This document shows, piece by piece, positions 112-64,000 of a stretch of 64,000 nt of DNA; within the stretch, counting starts at the first letter, position 1; every line of letters begins with the position of its first letter. This DNA is from Choricystis sp. odSpoLacu1 (lineage: Eukaryota > Chlorophyta > Trebouxiophyceae), in contig OY253655.1 of assembly GCA_958009055.1 (NCBI GenBank), forward strand, positions 186,001-250,000, in the 5' to 3' direction. Under the pieces are notes generated by a model. The model was not told the DNA's origin. It worked only from the letters and a program-made list of their open reading frames with translations, and ran no database searches. The position numbers and the translations under genes were made by a program.

Positions 112-408
112 GGAAAAAGGATGGAGTCGAGGGGGATTTGGGGGGTACGTGGGCGCCCACCGCCGGGGTTGTGAGTCTCTGATGGAGGTTGCACAGTTCG
201 GCCGAATTTGTAGGAACGCCTAGACCCTTGGGGGAGAGAAGTGACCAATGGACGCGAAGCTTTTTATCGGTACCAACGGCGTCGAGTTTGCACACACACG
301 CCCCCGTCCCGGAGAGGTGGGTTTGCGTCTACGTGTTGGACTCGCGAGGGCAACCCCCAACACCAAAAACATGTGGCCATTCACTTGGTCAATCACTTGG
401 TGACGCTT

Positions 409-2361
409 TCACACAGTGCCGTCGGCACCACCACCACCACCCTTTCTCAACCGCAACCGCCGCCGCACCCACTGCCCCGCCTTGAGCCTCGCCTCCCCCA
501 CCTTTGTGCTGACGCCAAACGGCAGGCCGTACACAGCGACCAGTTCGGGCACCCTCCACCACGCAGCCGCGTCGTCGTGGTGCGCGTGCCACGGGACCAG
601 CCCGCGCTCAGCCGGCGTGGCGGGCGCGGTGGCGTCCAGCAGCAGGCTCACAATCAGCGCCACCACAGCCCCCGACTTCAGCACCGAGTTCGCCATCGCG
701 TTCACAGTGGGCGACGTCGTGGTGACAGGCCCACCGGTGCCCGCGTAGCGCGGGTCGTGGGCAAACGCGGCCACCGAGAGTCCACTGTAAATCGAAACGC
801 CCACAACGATGACGGAGCGGGGCGAGTTCATGTCCACAAACTCCAGCATGCCGAGCGCAAGGCCGGCCACCGTGGAGCACAGCACGACCAGCAGTCCCCC
901 CACCATGGCGCTCGGAATGGACGCCAGCGCGGCCGACACTTTGGGCAGCAACGCGATGACGATGCCGACCACCGCGCTGACCTGCACCACGACGCGCGCG
1001 CCGACCCGGGTGACGGCTATCATGGCCGCGTTTTCGTTGTACACGGTGGACCCGGAGGTCGTTGGAAACACGCCGGCCAGCACGCTGGTCAACCCTTGCA
1101 AGACGACGGCGCGCTCGACGACAGCGGTCGGGGGGACAGGGGCGCCTGCCACGCGGGAAACCAGGTAGTAGTCGCCCAGACTCTGCAAGGCGGTGGTCAG
1201 GCCAGCCCCCATCACGATCAAGATGGACTCGGCGGAGAATGTGGGTGTTCCAAACGCTCCCGGCAGCGGCAGCCGCACCCATGGTGCGCGGGCGATGACG
1301 TCGACCGGCGTGGCGCACGCGGCCACGGTTTCGGGGGACGCGCCACGCCACGCGCCCGCTGCCGTGGCGATGCCCGCCCCGCTCCACACCACGAACAGGG
1401 CCAGCACAACGGGAACCGTCTCGAAAATGGGGGCAGACACGCCACGCCAGAGTGGCAGGCGCACGTGGCGCAGGTGGAGGGTGAACAATAAAATCATCGC
1501 CAGCGTGGGCACAGACACAGACCAGCAGTCCGCCATGGCGGGCACGCCAACGGTGTAGTTGGTGAACCCGACGGCCGCGATGGACGCCGCGACGACGAGG
1601 GGGGAGATGAAGCGCAGGCACACACGCAGCAGCCCACTGGCCGCGATGGCGGCCACCGCGACCCCCGCCACGATGCAGGCACCACTCACTTCGCGCATGG
1701 TGGCGGCGAAGCGTGCGGGGTCTGTGCCGTCGGGCAGAGGGGTCCAGCCGCCACGCGCTTTGACGATGGCGGTGACGGCGGCCACGGGTTGGACGTAGGC
1801 AAACGCGCCGCCTTGCACAGCGGGCAGACGGTCCCCCACAAACGTTTGGATGAGCGTGATGATCCCGGAAACAAAAAACAGCGTCGAAATCGCGAGCGCG
1901 ACGTCGTCTCGAGAAGCCCCCATCGGTGGCACCGTGATCACGACGACACCCACAGTGGACCCGATGAACACAAGAAAGTGTTGGATGCCCAGGATGAGGG
2001 TTGCTTGCCAGGGGGGGCGGTCCAGGATGGAGTAGCGGACTGGAGGAAGGGGGGGTTGGGAGGCGGCAAAGTGTCAAGGCCGTGCCGGGGAAGGCGCTGT
2101 GCGCCCCGAACGCATCTGGCGGCATGGTCGTGCCCTCGCGCCCGTCACCTCGCTGACCGTCTGGAGGCCCCTTTTTGCCCCTTTTTGCTCATCTCTCTCT
2201 CTCTTTCTCTCTCTCTTCCACAACTCACGGTTCTGCCGTGTCGGGTCGGTGTCCACCACGCGCACACTCGGCGCGCGTGCAGCTTCCAGCGACAGCCGCC
2301 GCACCAGGCCGTCATGTCCCCCGTCAACTTTGCTGACGGACGGGGGAGGGTGGTGTGACAT
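409..2361 (-). CDS. Nucleobase/ascorbate transporter (NAT/NCS2), array copy 1
   Basis: A two-exon gene for a 587-residue polytopic membrane protein of the nucleobase-cation symporter-2 family, which imports purines, uracil or ascorbate with protons or sodium. Exon 1 is 2361-2229 and exon 2 is 2039-409. The 189-bp intron (2228-2040) has a GTGAGT donor and an acceptor after a C/T tract; it joins 133 nt to 1,631 nt, exactly 588 codons. The join recreates the family start RYSILDRPPW followed by LGIQHFLVFIG, with the TM1 QH pair. The TM10 signature reads ENAAMIAVTR. The usual Gly at signature position 4 is Ala, and the usual Glu of the TM8 ES-GDY motif is Gln (ALQSLGDYY), so the substrate may not be a standard purine. 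The intron carries a GA-rich microsatellite. Substrate is unknown. Confidence 0.88.
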
Positions 2362-2658
2362 GGAAAAAGGATGGAGTCGAGGGGGATTTGGGGGGTACGT
2401 GGGCGCCCACCGCCGGGGTTGTGAGTCTCTGATGGAGGTTGCACAGTTCGGCCGAATTTGTAGGAACGCCTAGACCCTTGGGGGAGAGAAGTGACCAATG
2501 GACGCGAAGCTTTTTATCGGTACCAACGGCGTCGAGTTTGCACACACACGCCCCCGTCCCGGAGAGGTGGGTTTGCGTCTACGTGTTGGACTCGCGAGGG
2601 CAACCCCCAACACCAAAAACATGTGGCCATTCACTTGGTCAATCACTTGGTGACGCTT

Positions 2659-4611
2659 TCACACAGTGCCGTCGGCACCACCACCACCACCCTTTCTCAA
2701 CCGCAACCGCCGCCGCACCCACTGCCCCGCCTTGAGCCTCGCCTCCCCCACCTTTGTGCTGACGCCAAACGGCAGGCCGTACACAGCGACCAGTTCGGGC
2801 ACCCTCCACCACGCAGCCGCGTCGTCGTGGTGCGCGTGCCACGGGACCAGCCCGCGCTCAGCCGGCGTGGCGGGCGCGGTGGCGTCCAGCAGCAGGCTCA
2901 CAATCAGCGCCACCACAGCCCCCGACTTCAGCACCGAGTTCGCCATCGCGTTCACAGTGGGCGACGTCGTGGTGACAGGCCCACCGGTGCCCGCGTAGCG
3001 CGGGTCGTGGGCAAACGCGGCCACCGAGAGTCCACTGTAAATCGAAACGCCCACAACGATGACGGAGCGGGGCGAGTTCATGTCCACAAACTCCAGCATG
3101 CCGAGCGCAAGGCCGGCCACCGTGGAGCACAGCACGACCAGCAGTCCCCCCACCATGGCGCTCGGAATGGACGCCAGCGCGGCCGACACTTTGGGCAGCA
3201 ACGCGATGACGATGCCGACCACCGCGCTGACCTGCACCACGACGCGCGCGCCGACCCGGGTGACGGCTATCATGGCCGCGTTTTCGTTGTACACGGTGGA
3301 CCCGGAGGTCGTTGGAAACACGCCGGCCAGCACGCTGGTCAACCCTTGCAAGACGACGGCGCGCTCGACGACAGCGGTCGGGGGGACAGGGGCGCCTGCC
3401 ACGCGGGAAACCAGGTAGTAGTCGCCCAGACTCTGCAAGGCGGTGGTCAGGCCAGCCCCCATCACGATCAAGATGGACTCGGCGGAGAATGTGGGTGTTC
3501 CAAACGCTCCCGGCAGCGGCAGCCGCACCCATGGTGCGCGGGCGATGACGTCGACCGGCGTGGCGCACGCGGCCACGGTTTCGGGGGACGCGCCACGCCA
3601 CGCGCCCGCTGCCGTGGCGATGCCCGCCCCGCTCCACACCACGAACAGGGCCAGCACAACGGGAACCGTCTCGAAAATGGGGGCAGACACGCCACGCCAG
3701 AGTGGCAGGCGCACGTGGCGCAGGTGGAGGGTGAACAATAAAATCATCGCCAGCGTGGGCACAGACACAGACCAGCAGTCCGCCATGGCGGGCACGCCAA
3801 CGGTGTAGTTGGTGAACCCGACGGCCGCGATGGACGCCGCGACGACGAGGGGGGAGATGAAGCGCAGGCACACACGCAGCAGCCCACTGGCCGCGATGGC
3901 GGCCACCGCGACCCCCGCCACGATGCAGGCACCACTCACTTCGCGCATGGTGGCGGCGAAGCGTGCGGGGTCTGTGCCGTCGGGCAGAGGGGTCCAGCCG
4001 CCACGCGCTTTGACGATGGCGGTGACGGCGGCCACGGGTTGGACGTAGGCAAACGCGCCGCCTTGCACAGCGGGCAGACGGTCCCCCACAAACGTTTGGA
4101 TGAGCGTGATGATCCCGGAAACAAAAAACAGCGTCGAAATCGCGAGCGCGACGTCGTCTCGAGAAGCCCCCATCGGTGGCACCGTGATCACGACGACACC
4201 CACAGTGGACCCGATGAACACAAGAAAGTGTTGGATGCCCAGGATGAGGGTTGCTTGCCAGGGGGGGCGGTCCAGGATGGAGTAGCGGACTGGAGGAAGG
4301 GGGGGTTGGGAGGCGGCAAAGTGTCAAGGCCGTGCCGGGGAAGGCGCTGTGCGCCCCGAACGCATCTGGCGGCATGGTCGTGCCCTCGCGCCCGTCACCT
4401 CGCTGACCGTCTGGAGGCCCCTTTTTGCCCCTTTTTGCTCATCTCTCTCTCTCTTTCTCTCTCTCTTCCACAACTCACGGTTCTGCCGTGTCGGGTCGGT
4501 GTCCACCACGCGCACACTCGGCGCGCGTGCAGCTTCCAGCGACAGCCGCCGCACCAGGCCGTCATGTCCCCCGTCAACTTTGCTGACGGACGGGGGAGGG
4601 TGGTGTGACAT
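2659..4611 (-). CDS. Nucleobase/ascorbate transporter (NAT/NCS2), array copy 2
   Basis: Exact repeat of copy 1, shifted by 2,250 bp: exon 1 4611-4479, intron 4478-4290, exon 2 4289-2659, 587 residues. The 297 bp between its start codon and the stop of copy 3 must contain its promoter. That spacer is identical in each unit, so every copy should be expressed in the same way. No residue differs from copy 1 in the translation. Confidence 0.88.
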
Positions 4612-4908
4612 GGAAAAAGGATGGAGTCGAGGGGGATTTGGGGGGTACGTGGGCGCCCACCGCCGGGGTTGTGAGTCTCTGATGGAGGTTGCACAGTTCG
4701 GCCGAATTTGTAGGAACGCCTAGACCCTTGGGGGAGAGAAGTGACCAATGGACGCGAAGCTTTTTATCGGTACCAACGGCGTCGAGTTTGCACACACACG
4801 CCCCCGTCCCGGAGAGGTGGGTTTGCGTCTACGTGTTGGACTCGCGAGGGCAACCCCCAACACCAAAAACATGTGGCCATTCACTTGGTCAATCACTTGG
4901 TGACGCTT

Positions 4909-6861
4909 TCACACAGTGCCGTCGGCACCACCACCACCACCCTTTCTCAACCGCAACCGCCGCCGCACCCACTGCCCCGCCTTGAGCCTCGCCTCCCCCA
5001 CCTTTGTGCTGACGCCAAACGGCAGGCCGTACACAGCGACCAGTTCGGGCACCCTCCACCACGCAGCCGCGTCGTCGTGGTGCGCGTGCCACGGGACCAG
5101 CCCGCGCTCAGCCGGCGTGGCGGGCGCGGTGGCGTCCAGCAGCAGGCTCACAATCAGCGCCACCACAGCCCCCGACTTCAGCACCGAGTTCGCCATCGCG
5201 TTCACAGTGGGCGACGTCGTGGTGACAGGCCCACCGGTGCCCGCGTAGCGCGGGTCGTGGGCAAACGCGGCCACCGAGAGTCCACTGTAAATCGAAACGC
5301 CCACAACGATGACGGAGCGGGGCGAGTTCATGTCCACAAACTCCAGCATGCCGAGCGCAAGGCCGGCCACCGTGGAGCACAGCACGACCAGCAGTCCCCC
5401 CACCATGGCGCTCGGAATGGACGCCAGCGCGGCCGACACTTTGGGCAGCAACGCGATGACGATGCCGACCACCGCGCTGACCTGCACCACGACGCGCGCG
5501 CCGACCCGGGTGACGGCTATCATGGCCGCGTTTTCGTTGTACACGGTGGACCCGGAGGTCGTTGGAAACACGCCGGCCAGCACGCTGGTCAACCCTTGCA
5601 AGACGACGGCGCGCTCGACGACAGCGGTCGGGGGGACAGGGGCGCCTGCCACGCGGGAAACCAGGTAGTAGTCGCCCAGACTCTGCAAGGCGGTGGTCAG
5701 GCCAGCCCCCATCACGATCAAGATGGACTCGGCGGAGAATGTGGGTGTTCCAAACGCTCCCGGCAGCGGCAGCCGCACCCATGGTGCGCGGGCGATGACG
5801 TCGACCGGCGTGGCGCACGCGGCCACGGTTTCGGGGGACGCGCCACGCCACGCGCCCGCTGCCGTGGCGATGCCCGCCCCGCTCCACACCACGAACAGGG
5901 CCAGCACAACGGGAACCGTCTCGAAAATGGGGGCAGACACGCCACGCCAGAGTGGCAGGCGCACGTGGCGCAGGTGGAGGGTGAACAATAAAATCATCGC
6001 CAGCGTGGGCACAGACACAGACCAGCAGTCCGCCATGGCGGGCACGCCAACGGTGTAGTTGGTGAACCCGACGGCCGCGATGGACGCCGCGACGACGAGG
6101 GGGGAGATGAAGCGCAGGCACACACGCAGCAGCCCACTGGCCGCGATGGCGGCCACCGCGACCCCCGCCACGATGCAGGCACCACTCACTTCGCGCATGG
6201 TGGCGGCGAAGCGTGCGGGGTCTGTGCCGTCGGGCAGAGGGGTCCAGCCGCCACGCGCTTTGACGATGGCGGTGACGGCGGCCACGGGTTGGACGTAGGC
6301 AAACGCGCCGCCTTGCACAGCGGGCAGACGGTCCCCCACAAACGTTTGGATGAGCGTGATGATCCCGGAAACAAAAAACAGCGTCGAAATCGCGAGCGCG
6401 ACGTCGTCTCGAGAAGCCCCCATCGGTGGCACCGTGATCACGACGACACCCACAGTGGACCCGATGAACACAAGAAAGTGTTGGATGCCCAGGATGAGGG
6501 TTGCTTGCCAGGGGGGGCGGTCCAGGATGGAGTAGCGGACTGGAGGAAGGGGGGGTTGGGAGGCGGCAAAGTGTCAAGGCCGTGCCGGGGAAGGCGCTGT
6601 GCGCCCCGAACGCATCTGGCGGCATGGTCGTGCCCTCGCGCCCGTCACCTCGCTGACCGTCTGGAGGCCCCTTTTTGCCCCTTTTTGCTCATCTCTCTCT
6701 CTCTTTCTCTCTCTCTTCCACAACTCACGGTTCTGCCGTGTCGGGTCGGTGTCCACCACGCGCACACTCGGCGCGCGTGCAGCTTCCAGCGACAGCCGCC
6801 GCACCAGGCCGTCATGTCCCCCGTCAACTTTGCTGACGGACGGGGGAGGGTGGTGTGACAT
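4909..6861 (-). CDS. Nucleobase/ascorbate transporter (NAT/NCS2), array copy 3
   Basis: Right-most complete copy: exon 1 6861-6729, intron 6728-6540, exon 2 6539-4909, 587 residues identical to the other copies. Its upstream DNA matches the other copies for only about 172 bp before the array breaks at about 7033. If the promoter extends farther than that, this copy may be regulated differently from those inside the array. Confidence 0.88.
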
Positions 6862-26506: not shown

Positions 26507-29442
26507 ATGCCCACCGTCTCCTTCCGCGTCGTCTACCCCACCACCTGGGGCCAGACGGTGGCCGTGCTGGGCGCCCCAGCGACGCTGGGCGGCGGCAACC
26601 CGGCGCGCGCGCCGCGCTTGACCGCCCGCGTGCTGGGCGGCCAGGTGGTGTGGCAGGCGACGCTGACGTTGCACGCTGGTGAGGATAGCGACCTCACCAC
26701 CCTCATCTACCGCTACGCCGTGCTGAACGCCGACGGCGTCACCGTCGTGGATGCAGAGCCACGTGACCGTGCCGTCGCCCTCCCCCCCGCCGGCGACGCC
26801 CTGCTGTGCCGGGACACGTGGACGAGCGACGCCGACCCGGGGGCGTTGTTGACGCGGGCCCCGTTCCGCATCTGGAGGCCGGCGCGGCGGTGTGTGAGCG
26901 GTGGGGTGGTGGCGCTGCCGCCTCCAACGGATGACCCGACAGCAGTCACCCTCCACCTGTCCGTGCGCGTCGCGGGCCTCGCCCCAGGCGACGCCGTCGT
27001 CGTCCTGGGGTCGGCCCCCGCCCTGGGCGCGTGGCGCCCGGAGCGCGCGCTCGCGCTGACCGAGACCGACACCCCGCTCTGGCGCGGCGTGGCGGTCGTC
27101 CCCGCCCCCCACTTTCCCGTCACCTACCGCTACGCTGTGCGGCGGGCGGCTGCCGCCCCTGACACTGAACCCGACCTGGAGGCGGGCGACAACCGCATCG
27201 CGGCCTGGGAGGAGGGCGGCGCGCCGAGAGCGCTCGCGTCTGATGGCGGCTGGCTGCGCACCGCGTCCCCGTGGCGCGGGGCGGGCCTTGCCGTCCCCCT
27301 CTTCTCCGTGCGCTCAGACGGCGGGTGTGGCGCGGGGTCATTTGGCGACATCGCGCCCCTCGCGACCTGGTGCGCGCGCGCGGGGTTGCGCGTGCTGCAG
27401 CTCCTGCCCGTCGTCGACACGCGCGTCGCCGGCGACTGGACCGACTCCTACCCCTACTCCGCGGTGTCCGCGTTTGCGCTGCACCCACTGTACATGGATG
27501 TGGATGGGTTGGTGGAGGAGTGTGGGCGCAGTGGGGTGAAACTGCCGCCGGTCGCAGCACAAGCCTACCAGTCCGCGCGTTCAACCCTCAACCCTCTGCC
27601 CGACGTCGACTACCCCGCCACGCTGGCCGCCAAACTGGCTGCCGCGGTCGCTCTGTACTATGATGGCGGCGGCGAAGGGAGGGCGATGCAGGAGGAGGAG
27701 GAGGCGGCGGCGGCTTCGCGCGGTGGCGACACCGGCGGCGCGCTCCCGTGCTCCGATCCACCTTTCGCCGCCTGGCAACGCCACCACGCGGCCTGGTTGC
27801 GCCCCTACCTGGCCCACCGCGTGCTGGCGGACGCCGTGTTCGGGCACGCAAGGCATGCAGAGTGGGGGGCCCTATCGGCACCCACCCACTCCGATGTCGA
27901 CCGCATCCTGGCCTCCCCCCTCTCCCGCCCCGCCCGCTTTGAGGCCTGGCTGCAGTGGCACCTGTGGCGCCAGCTGAAGGCGGCTGCGGCAGCCGCGGCT
28001 GGTGTCGGCGTCGCGCTCAAGGGTGACCTGCCGATCGGGGTGGACCCCTCCTCCGCCGACGCGTGGTGGAGCGCCCCCCTCTTCCGCCGCCACGCGTCCA
28101 CGGGCGCCCCCCCCGACGCCTTCGACGCCAGGGGCCAGGCCTGGGGGTTCCCCCCCTACGCGTGGGGCAGCGGCGACGCGGGCGCGATGGCGGCCTGGTG
28201 GCGCGCGCGCCTGACCCACATGGCCTCCTTCTTCGCCCTGCTGCGCGTGGACCACGTGCTCGGCTTCTTCAGAGTGTGGGAGCTGCCGGCGGGCGCGGCG
28301 ACGGGGCTGTGCGGCCAGTTTCGGCCGGCGGCCGCCATCACGCGGGCAGAGCTCGAGGCGGCCGGCCTGTGGGACGTCCACCGCCTGGCGGACCCCTACA
28401 TCACGCTCGAGTCTGCCACAACTGCTCTAGCCTCCGTGGGTGGCGCCGCCGCGGTCGCCAGGTTCACGGTGGCGGGGGAGGGGGGCAGGTTGAGGCTGGC
28501 CCCCGTGTGCGCGAGTGAGGCATTGATTGATGCCCTGACCCCCGCCGACGTCGCCGGCCTCATCCCCGACGCTGCAGACACGGACGCCCTACTGGCCGCC
28601 GCCCAGGCGGCCCTGTTGACGCTGGCCCAAAACGTGTGCCTGGTGCGTGATTTAGATGCCCCCTCCGAAACCTTCCACCCGCGCTTCAACGTCACCGCGT
28701 CCCCCTCCTTCGCGTCCCTGCCCGACCCACACTGGCGGGACACGCTGGCGGCCTGGCACGATGATTATTACTACGGCGCTCGCCATGACGCGCTGTGGAC
28801 CGCGCGCGCGCGCGCGCGTCGCTCGGGCCCCTCGTTTCAGCGACTTCCATGCTCATCTGTGGTGAAGACCTGGGCATGGTGCCCCGCTGCGTGCCGCCAG
28901 CCCTGGCAGCGCACGGTGTGCTGGGGCTGCGCGTGCAGCGCATGCCGCACGCGGAGGGTGGTGGGGGTGGGGGTGGCGGCGGCTGTTGTGGGAGTGGGGC
29001 AGACGCCGCCGCTTCCCCCGAGTTTGGGGACCCAGCCCGCTATCCGGTGCTGTCGGTGGCGGCGCCCTCCACCCACGACTGCCCCCCGCTGCGGGCGTGG
29101 TGGGAGGAGGATGGCGGGCGGAGGGAGAGGTACTGGGGAAAGGTGCTGCACCGCGCCGGCTCCCCACCCCCCACCTGCACCCCGGCCGTCGCCTCCGCCA
29201 TCCTCACCCACCACGCCCGCTCCCCCGCCATGCTGGCCGTGTTCCCTCTGCAGGATGTGCTGGCGCTGTCGCCGCGTGCCGCGGAGAGGGACGCAGCGCA
29301 GGAAATTGTCAATGATCCCTCCGTGCGCCGCCACTACTGGCGGTACAGGTGCCAAGTGTCTGTGCAGGCGCTGGCCGCGGATGGCGAGTTGACGGAGGGG
29401 GTGCGGCGCCTGGTGGCGGACGCGGGGCGGGATGTTGGGTGA
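26507..29442 (+). CDS. 4-alpha-glucanotransferase DPE2 (two CBM20 + GH77), frame slip at CG repeat
   Basis: Cytosolic disproportionating enzyme that moves one glucosyl unit of maltose to a heteroglycan or glycogen during starch breakdown. About 977 residues, single exon. Residues ~1-115 and ~140-255 are starch-binding CBM20 domains; the second has VVVLGSAPALGAWRPERAL. GH77 motifs: LPVVDTRVAGDWTDSYPYS, RVDHVLGFFRVWELP with the nucleophile Asp (~581), ICGEDLGMVP with the acid/base Glu (~783), and APSTHDCPPLRAWW with the third acidic residue (~854). The frame changes within an 18-nt CG repeat (28801-28818). One CG unit fewer would restore a single frame, so an assembly or replication slip is likely. 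A poly-Gly insertion follows RVQRMPHAE. Confidence 0.88.
28801..28818. repeat. (CG)9 microsatellite in DPE2 coding sequence
   Basis: Nine CG dinucleotides inside the GH77 domain. Removing two bases here rejoins the two halves of DPE2 (DALWTARARA to SLGPLVSATS). Confidence 0.85.
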
Positions 29443-37310: not shown

Positions 37311-37611
37311 AAGGAGGAGTGGTTTGTTTCATTTTCTGCGTGTTTTTTTCTTGTTTCCCAGGCTGCGGTGTCCCCCCCCGCTGCAAAACACTTGCCCTGC
37401 AAAGCACTGCGTGTGTCCACACACAACACCATCTCTCATGAAATGTGGCTGATTTTCGTTTTGTTTTTTGCGCACAACACAGGGGATGTGTGGGGGGGGG
37501 AGGCAACGCGCCCCCGCCTCGAAACCCAAAGATGATCGCCCTGCCTCCCACCCCCCTTCCGACTCACACACACACACACACACACACATACTGCACCAAC
37601 GCCACCCCTCC

Positions 37612-61885: not shown

Positions 61886-62456
61886 TCAAAACCTCCCCAC
61901 GACTCGCCTCTGTCCCGCCCCCACGGCGCGGCCTTCCAACACCACCACACGCTTGCCCCAGCGGACGGAAATCTCGAAACAGGCCGACAGGCCTGCCAAG
62001 CTGGCGCCGACGATGACCACGTCGACCGCGGCCGGCAGGGGGGGCGCGCCACGCGCCCCCTTCGGGCGCGCGTGGCGCGGGCGGAGTCCTGGTTCCACAT
62101 GGTGGCGGCCAGGCCTGTGCGAGTGTGTGTGGGGGGGTTGTGTGGGGTGGGTGGGTGGTTCGAGGGTGGTTTGGGTTTTCAGTCGCGCTCTCGGCGATGA
62201 GCGGGCGACCAGGGGGCGGGTGATGGTCACGATCTCCTCTCTCTCTCCTCTGCCCACCCCACATCACACACGCACACACACACACACACTCTCCCTCACT
62301 CACCCGCGGGCCGACCGCCGGGTCGGCGGGCAGCGTGCCCGTGGCCAGCCGCGCCGCGCCGGTCGGCGGCGTGTCGGCGCGCGGCGGCGACAGCGTGAGT
62401 AACGGGTAGCGCGGGCGCAGGTGGAGGCGGGAGAGGGCGGAGAAGATGGAGCCCAT
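61886..62456 (-). pseudogene. FAD-dependent oxidoreductase fragment (DAO-like), broken
   Basis: Exon 1 (62456-62304) encodes MGSIFSALSRLHLRPRYPLL and joins an acceptor at 62116. Exon 2 contains AAVDVVIVGASLAGLSACFE, a dinucleotide-binding beta-alpha-beta motif (G-x-S-x-A-G), then VRWGKRVVVLEGRAVGAGQ, as at the N-terminus of glycine/D-amino-acid oxidase-type enzymes. No splice choice connects exon 1 to that frame. The frame changes at an inverted repeat (62045-62079), and a stop follows soon after VGAGQ. The rest of the enzyme is absent. Confidence 0.6.
62045..62079. repeat. Imperfect inverted repeat at frame break
   Basis: Left arm cgcgccacgcgccc (62045-62058) and right arm gggcgcgcgtggcgcg (62064-62079) pair except for one extra GC, with a 5-nt loop. 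It sits exactly where the FAD-oxidoreductase frame changes. Confidence 0.85.
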
Positions 62457-62615
62457 GGTGTTGTTTGGGTGTTTGTACGTGGGAAGGTGAAGAGTGCGGG
62501 GAAAGAAAACGGAGAGGGGGTGTGTTTTGTGAAGAGGCGTCAATTTTTTACACACCTCCTCCGCCCCCCCTCCCCCACATCAGCCTCCCCTCCGCGCGCC
62601 CCACCCTCCTCTTTA

Positions 62616-62701
62616 TAGCGTGTAAGGGATTCGAACCCTTGAGGCGTTTTCACGCCGACGGATCAGAAGTCCGCCGCCTTCGACCGCTCGGCCAACACGC
62701 T
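62616..62701 (-). tRNA. Class II tRNA with UCU anticodon, Leu-like discriminator A73
   Basis: An 86-nt cloverleaf without intron. Acceptor AGCGTGT/ACACGCT (7 pairs), D-arm GCCGAGCGGTCGAAGGC, anticodon stem GCGGA/TCCGT with loop CTTCTGA, a 17-nt variable arm with 5-bp stem GGCGT/ACGCC closed by GAAA, T-arm AAGGG TTCGAAT CCCTT, discriminator A. The long variable arm and D-arm are those of Ser/Leu tRNAs, but loop positions 34-36 read TCT, the Arg (AGA) anticodon. Base 37 is G, whereas tRNAs for ANN codons normally have A37. Amino-acid identity is therefore uncertain. Confidence 0.75.
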
Positions 62702-62978
62702 CTGGGCTGCACGTACTCAGGGGGAGGACGTGCAGCAGAGAGGAGGGGGGGCGCAGAAAAAGAATGATGGTGTGGGGGGGGAAGGAAGAGACTGGACACG
62801 TCCTCCAGGGGGGAGGGACATGTCAGCAAGGGAGGCGGGGGAGTGGGGGAGGAAGGGGAGAGAGAGGAGAGACAAAAAAACAACAAGTCACCCTCTCTCC
62901 CCCCCCGGACTCACCTTGAGACGCGGCCGCCCCCCTACCCCAAACCCCAGCCACAGCACAGCACACACTCACCTCAAA

Positions 62979-63106
62979 CGTCGTGACTTGGATTCGAACC
63001 AAGGTAACGTTTTCACGTCAACGGGTGCCTCGCGGAGACGGAGGGAGAGGATTTTCCCCCCACAGTCACAGAAGCCCGCCGCCTTCAACCGCTCGGCCAC
63101 CACGAC
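62979..63106 (-). tRNA. Class II tRNA with UCU anticodon, intron, Ser-like discriminator G73
   Basis: Acceptor GTCGTGG/TCACGAC with one G-U pair, D-arm GCCGAGCGGTTGAAGGC, anticodon stem GCGGG/CCCGT, variable arm with GACGT/ACGTT closed by GAAA, T-arm CTTGG TTCGAAT CCAAG, discriminator G. A 42-nt intron sits at the canonical place after base 37. After its removal the loop is CTTCTGA, identical to the other class II tRNA 280 bp away, so the anticodon is UCU. The mature length is again 86 nt. G73 and the long arm fit seryl-tRNA synthetase; the anticodon fits Arg. Confidence 0.75.
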
Positions 63107-63524: not shown

Positions 63525-64000
63525 TCACTTCAACAGGCTGCGCACCACGCTCTTCACGTTCAACCTCTTCAAATCCACATACGTTTGGCCACACCCCACA
63601 AACATGATGGGCGCCCCGCTGGCATACACCATGGAAACGGCGGCGCCCACCTTGTCGTCAATGGTGTCAAACTTGGTGAGGACGACGCCATCGATGGCGG
63701 CGGGGCGGTCGGCTTCACCGCGCAGAGCGGTCGTGCCGTCGCCGCCGGCAGCCTCCGCCACACCCCGCCCCCCCGCCGCCGCGCGAGGGGGCGCCAGGTC
63801 CAGCAAGCGCGCGTTGAACGTGGTCAGTTGGTCCACGCCGTCGGCACCGACAAGGGCTTCACCCACGAACAATACAAGATCAGGAGCATTCGTGGCGATC
63901 AACCCCGCCAGCGCCCGCATCAACGGCTCATTGTCCTGCATGCGGCCCGCCGTGTCGACGAGGACGGCGTCGATGCCGTCCCGGGCGGCAGCGCGCACGG
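63525..64000 (-). CDS. SRP receptor subunit alpha (partial, 3' end)
   Basis: C-terminal part of the GTPase domain of the endoplasmic-reticulum signal recognition particle receptor; the gene continues right of the window. Seen: [20 protein letters not shown] (the G3 region DTAGR), [38 protein letters not shown] (G4, TKFD), [19 protein letters not shown] (G5) and the C-terminal [18 protein letters not shown] and GCGQ distinguish the eukaryotic receptor from bacterial/chloroplast FtsY and from SRP54. A ~25-residue Gly/Ala-rich insertion (63740-63790) interrupts the domain between strands. Confidence 0.9.

Follow-up and report, generated by a model that had tools for sequence, protein, structure and literature searches.

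The window analysed here is a stretch of 64,000 nucleotides (C7:186001-250000) from the G+C-rich genome of the green alga Choricystis sp. odSpoLacu1, which comprises 14.59 Mb in 19 contigs. Two tRNA genes, here called gene 1 and gene 2, lie close to the end of this window (Table 1). Read along the minus strand, the order is an SRP54-type GTPase gene (ORF end at 63528), gene 2, gene 1 and the apparent beginning of an FAD-oxidoreductase gene, with an ATG near 62456 as judged by eye. The SRP54-type gene, which lies upstream of the tRNA pair on the same strand, probably encodes SRP receptor alpha. A Pfam search with the FAD-oxidoreductase-like ORF returned no match, and a small-RNA scan around the pair gave, beyond both tRNAs, sub-threshold matches only. 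The hairpin before gene 1 overlaps the first two bases of the gene. The segment 62700-62745 folds at -23.1 kcal/mol (z -6.8). Inverted repeats with perfect 9-bp arms number 27 in the window, this hairpin among them. Elsewhere in the window, at 214-6855, a 2250-bp unit is present in three head-to-tail copies. ORF lengths and codon counts are the same in all three, and the one copy that was scanned encodes a xanthine/uracil permease-family protein. The tandem-repeat program covered periods up to 500 and was blind to this unit.

Table 1. Features of the tRNA locus and its surroundings (positions in the window)
Feature	Position	Strand	Details
Gene 1, class II tRNA	62616..62701	minus	UCU, A73, G37, intronless, 86 nt; Rfam 57.4 bits, ARAGORN Arg(tct)
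Gene 2, class II tRNA	62979..63106	minus	UCU, G73, G37, intron-bearing; mature 86 nt; Rfam 41.1 bits
Gene 1 anticodon TCT	62665..62667	minus	
Gene 2 anticodon TCT (with 37/38 intron cut)	63070..63072	minus	
Gene 2 predicted intron, 42 nt, between positions 37 and 38	63027..63068	minus	
T7, first T-run downstream of gene 2, at +98	62874..62880	minus	
T4, first T-run downstream of gene 1, at +106	62506..62509	minus	
Inverted repeat / RNA hairpin at 5' end of gene 1	62700..62742	minus	Repeat search and fold
SRP54-type GTPase gene, 3' end, ORF cut by window edge	63528..63998	minus	Pfam SRP54 3.6e-24

A preliminary description of this DNA had placed two 86-nt class II tRNA genes at 62616..63106, and both were confirmed at scores above the Rfam tRNA gathering cut-off of 29 bits. 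Gene 1 reached an E-value of 9.1e-10, and ARAGORN named it Arg(tct). The score of gene 2 comes from a permissive local scan; a gathering-threshold scan of the window, default ARAGORN and two whole-genome Rfam searches all missed it. Each gene forms seven acceptor, three D, five anticodon, five variable-arm and five T-stem pairs, all 25 of them standard. The variable region is 17 nt long and contains a 5-bp stem in both genes, class II being defined here as at least 10 nt with a stem. The loop CTTCTGA, and with it the anticodon UCU, was found in both genes as described (in gene 2 with the 37/38 cut), as were the differing discriminators, A73 and G73, and the atypical G37 beside U36. The modification t6A needs A37, which is not the base found beside U36 here. 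Both genes also carry U20. Neither gene bears a Leu or Ser anticodon under the canonical cut; ARAGORN's cut of gene 2 would give CAG. A tRNA-Sec was ruled out, as the anticodon is UCU rather than UCA and the acceptor and T stems have 7+5 pairs rather than a 13-bp acceptor branch.

The anticodon of gene 2 depends on where its intron is cut. The 42-nt intron proposed earlier agrees with the canonical 37/38 cut (63068-63027), the position at which eukaryotic tRNA introns lie. Intron-aware ARAGORN instead removed 40 nt and named the gene Leu(cag). This cut was rejected because it leaves a 9-nt anticodon loop, while the 37/38 cut gives a 7-nt loop identical to that of gene 1, which is intronless and shows UCU directly. 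Among the other nuclear tRNA genes, 15 of 22 have the length to accommodate an intron, with introns of up to 116 nt as cut. Pairing between anticodon and intron is possible in gene 2, and says little, since only five of the nine introns compared (gene 2 included) have it. The names of all intron-bearing tRNAs given below assume the 37/38 cut; ARAGORN differs on two of them, calling Leu CAA Met and Ser CGA Thr.

Genes 1 and 2 are diverged paralogues that differ at 21 of 86 positions. Sixteen of their 25 stem pairs are the same, eight have changed on both sides and one on one side, and none is broken. When random changes were placed at the same sites, all pairs were kept in 53 of 100,000 trials. 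With three further class II tRNAs from the nucleus added to the pair, pairing holds in 99.2% of cells, and the observed covariation was not reached in any of 500 shuffles. From this divergence with all stem pairs intact we infer that selection probably kept both genes as tRNA-shaped RNAs.

The comparison with other tRNAs of the alga draws on a nuclear set gathered mainly with sequence patterns. The D-arm patterns gave 137, 46 and 22 matches in the genome, and no class II UCU gene beyond the pair was found in 46 loci taken from the D-arm matches listed. A DNA search for more copies was insensitive, as it found gene 1 alone and missed gene 2. The T-arm pattern gave 121 matches against 157 for a reversed control, so that most of its matches are due to chance; 46 regions were taken from it, mostly by the pyrimidine at position 60. 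The resulting set is incomplete: genes for Val, Pro, His, Phe and Gln were not recovered, and Leu(UAG) and Ser(UGA) are absent among the genes found with D-arm patterns. Every other anticodon among the recovered nuclear tRNA genes was found once. Twenty-five genes were parsed, and the comparison of expression signals used 24, namely the pair and 22 others. The gene dropped was a tRNA-Asn(GUU) at C14:262870-262942, a near-copy of the mitochondrial gene. It is one base off that gene, lies in A+T-rich surroundings without a T-run and is probably a mitochondrial insertion. A weak Ala(UGC) (23.7 bits) and two implausible ARAGORN predictions (a 386-nt Ser and an 87-nt Thr) were left out of both gene sets. 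Two contigs, C18 (34.7 kb) and C19 (91 kb), have a high density of organelle-type tRNAs. An organellar copy was rejected as the source of the pair, since among the organellar tRNAs sampled, from part of these contigs, UCU occurs on a class I Arg tRNA but on no class II body. The plastid-like contig C19 itself holds, at 37361-37446 on the minus strand, a class II tRNA with anticodon CAU (Met/Ile) and A73, another long-arm tRNA with a foreign anticodon.

As parsed, the nuclear Leu tRNAs of the alga have A73 and G37 (four of four) and the Ser tRNAs G73 and A37 (three of three). Gene 1 is thus Leu-like at both positions, and gene 2 is mixed. Among seven nuclear bodies compared, tRNA-Leu(UAA) is the nearest to both genes by alignment score, sharing 48/70 core positions with gene 1 and 51/66 with gene 2. 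Its loop is CTTAAGA, and it has the frame CTTxxGA, G37 and the 17-nt variable region in common with the pair. Two anticodon changes would convert this loop to CTTCTGA, which would explain the presence of G37 beside U36. The pair may descend from a nuclear tRNA of Ser/Leu type whose anticodon changed to UCU, present in tandem and since diverged.

Descent from Leu(UAA) in particular is weakened by the better match of bacterial Ser-type bodies, which outscore it in four of four comparisons for gene 1 and three of four for gene 2. Apart from its twin, gene 1 is best matched by four class II tRNAs borne on bacterial plasmids, at 54-57/71 core positions, although this comparison is biased because the four were chosen from the top matches when gene 1 was run by BLAST against 7.3 billion bases. 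An E. coli tRNA-Ser sequence also scores above all algal tRNAs compared except the twin, for both genes. Mature gene 2 found 23 records in a plasmid BLAST, the best with 78.9% identity over 81%, and a phage BLAST found 17 records, two of them with 80% coverage. The nucleus might therefore have captured a bacterial or plasmid-type tRNA-Ser body. This origin is very unlikely, and stays a minor rival because of the way in which the four tRNAs were picked; gene 2 also has its intron at the site used by nuclear tRNAs of this genome, and the neighbours of the pair are ordinary cellular genes. In the course of this comparison, Ser-type class II tRNA-like genes with the loops CTGATAA and CTGATAC, which give the Ile anticodon GAU, were seen on plasmids of Arthrobacter and Brachybacterium; PLSDB's feature table, which is incomplete, has no feature there. 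Exact pattern scans for genes of the same type as the algal pair gave one viral and two prokaryotic places, none of them class II: two are tRNA genes, of 75 nt and 76 nt, and the third holds no tRNA. Because D-arm and loop are fixed in the pattern, it would pass over relatives whose D-arm differs.

Published identity rules suggest how the two tRNAs would be charged. Eukaryotic Leu identity is tabulated as A73 and a large variable region, with no anticodon determinants in the table (PMC9976931). Seryl-tRNA synthetase (SerRS) is described as not reading the anticodon (PMC9976931; PMC7609411), and a change from A73 to G73 can switch human tRNA-Leu to Ser identity (PMC9976931). By these rules, gene 1 is likely to be charged by LeuRS and gene 2 by SerRS, if they are made. 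G37 need not favour LeuRS, since in yeast tRNA-Ser it is listed as an antideterminant against that enzyme (PMC9976931). Charging by ArgRS, which would make the pair true arginine tRNAs that have gained a long variable arm, is highly improbable. The anticodon UCU supplies C35 and U36, and plant ArgRS is reported to recognize A20 together with C35 (PMC9976931). Both genes have C35, but U20 takes the place of A20, the main plant determinant together with C35, and the entire body is of Ser/Leu type. In addition, m1G37 in yeast tRNA-Asp is reported to block yeast ArgRS (PMC9976931), which also makes arginylation of these G37-bearing tRNAs unlikely. The search for synthetases in the genome found two places with a SerRS N-domain and only one with an ArgRS core, and no extra ArgRS was seen.

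The codon AGA has a conventional reader in this genome. The search for a normal tRNA-Arg(UCU) found a class I gene at C13:127845-127918 (68.8 bits) with the loop CTTCTAA, A37 and A20, directly followed at its 3' end by ten T. It occurs at a single place in the genome at up to three mismatches. The preliminary description had taken AGA to be Arg from the FFRVW motif of DPE2. The Arg assignment is borne out, although the codon lies at 28271-28273 and not at 28269-28271. In the plant-type DPE2 motif LGFFRVWE, the AGA site is R in 119 of 119 other homologues (among the best 120 of 647, the window's own included); of two bacterial amylomaltases shown from the PDB, one has R there and the other Ala. 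The AGA of CCT-beta encodes the arginine of GARVRVDS, which is R in both chains shown. Six further loci contained one AGA in a clear coding frame, that of CCT-beta. Opposite the AGA of PEPC, the chains shown carry Lys, and in a mannanase-like ORF the AGA falls outside the PDB match. None of the AGA sites tested in DPE2, CCT-beta and PEPC suggests Ser or Leu, and the reading of AGA as Arg rests on the two clearly conserved sites, in DPE2 and CCT-beta. A genetic code in which AGA means Ser or Leu was rejected on these arginines. The presence of a normal tRNA-Arg, together with the absence of the usual end signal from the pair, likewise makes a changed code unlikely.

The expression signals of the pair differ from those of the other nuclear tRNA genes. 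In all 22 others examined, a T-run of at least five begins no more than 30 nt after the 3' end. Neither member of the pair has one, and positions drawn at random from the window show one in 3.4% of cases. No T5 was found within 250 nt downstream of gene 1. Words resembling TCAAA or TTGAC stand upstream of 16 of the 22 others and of neither gene of the pair, with a frequency of 14% at random places; this result is merely suggestive, because the words were picked after the flanks had been viewed. To judge from these flanks, expression of the pair is probably weak, unconventional or absent. The absence of nearby terminators would fit a silent gene too, and the pair could be relics that have ceased to be transcribed as tRNA, being copies that died recently or elements working at the DNA level. 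In the latter case, the A and B boxes would bind TFIIIC as a boundary between two protein genes on the same strand. Such silence, to which the missing T-runs and upstream words both point, is unlikely on balance but a serious alternative. The perfect cloverleaves, in which eight stem pairs have changed on both sides and none has broken, count against dead genes, where loss of pairs would be expected. Weak, unconventional or absent expression is at odds with these signs of past selection.

The opposite extreme is that LeuRS and SerRS charge the pair, so that an appreciable share of AGA codons is translated as Leu or Ser. Class II bodies with A73 or G73 and the anticodon UCU favour such mistranslation, as do Leu identity without anticodon determinants and the blindness of SerRS to the anticodon (PMC9976931; PMC7609411), and nematode V-arm tRNAs (nev-tRNAs) with foreign anticodons are leucylated in vitro (PMC4300185). 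The same nev-tRNAs are reported to cause no detectable mistranslation (PMC4300185). In the alga, a normal tRNA-Arg(UCU) would compete with the pair, AGA occurs at conserved Arg sites and neither gene has a nearby terminator. Moreover, G37 beside U36 offers no A37 for t6A. Active mistranslation therefore has a small chance of being right, and the mistranslation implied by the preliminary description is not supported, given the normal tRNA-Arg(UCU), the AGA codons at two conserved Arg sites and the lack of a nearby T-run. A related possibility, with a slightly slimmer chance, is a dedicated off-code pair of one Leu-type and one Ser-type tRNA that competes with tRNA-Arg and renders AGA ambiguous, perhaps only when a terminator-less transcript is made, for example under stress.

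The preferred reading, held tentatively and at a little less than even confidence, is a green-algal parallel to nev-tRNAs: two tRNAs that would be charged with Leu or Ser if made, are weakly or unconventionally expressed and leave the code without visible effect. The output of the pair would be low or come from longer transcripts, and the normal tRNA would therefore read AGA as Arg. It is proposed that the cell tolerates the off-code tRNAs on account of their scarcity and of the codon they read, the least used of those for Arg. In Medakamo hakoo, a member of the Trebouxiophyceae with a genome of 15.8 Mb and 72.7% G+C, AGA makes up 379 of 51,114 Arg codons, fewer than any other (PMC9871001). 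This species is taken as a likely relative in view of the high G+C content, small genome and plant-type DPE2 found here, although the assembly sizes differ.

The parallel with nev-tRNAs, drawn already in the preliminary description, holds. In nematodes, nev-tRNAs have class II bodies with Gly CCC or Ile UAU anticodons; their expression is described as weak, they mature, are exported and are leucylated in vitro, and they occur beside normal-bodied tRNAs, with no mistranslation detectable in C. elegans (PMC4300185). Like the algal pair, they are nuclear class II tRNAs with a foreign anticodon that share a rare codon with a tRNA of normal body. Unlike them, the algal pair carries the Arg anticodon UCU, one of its genes has G73 and an intron, and it is known here from its genes alone. 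The likeness is one of type, and common ancestry is not claimed.

Other systems are less close. Bacterial allo-tRNAs also combine a Ser-type body with a range of many foreign anticodons, among them Arg, but their acceptor branch is described as having 12 bp (8/4 or 9/3) (PMC7609411), in contrast to the ordinary 7/5 of the algal pair. Alloacceptor anticodon shifts of nuclear tRNAs likewise give a body the anticodon of another amino acid, and were found by synteny in close relatives (PMC3923123). In the algal pair, the body class, with its long variable arm, conflicts with the anticodon as well, and two diverged copies are kept. The CAG-anticodon tRNA of Candida, as told in PMC4300185, also lets one codon be read as Leu or as Ser; that codon is ambiguous in the proteome, whereas AGA in the alga is without such sign and belongs to Arg. 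No class II nuclear tRNA with an Arg anticodon from a plant or alga was found in the open-licence PMC literature, although one may have appeared in print.

Foreign anticodons on class II tRNAs are already known from nematodes and bacteria, and the green-algal pair would be an independent case. It is a structurally maintained pair in a minimal green-algal genome in which each other recovered anticodon was found once. The pair makes it testable how an off-code tRNA is kept without mistranslation, and whether such genes serve roles beyond decoding.
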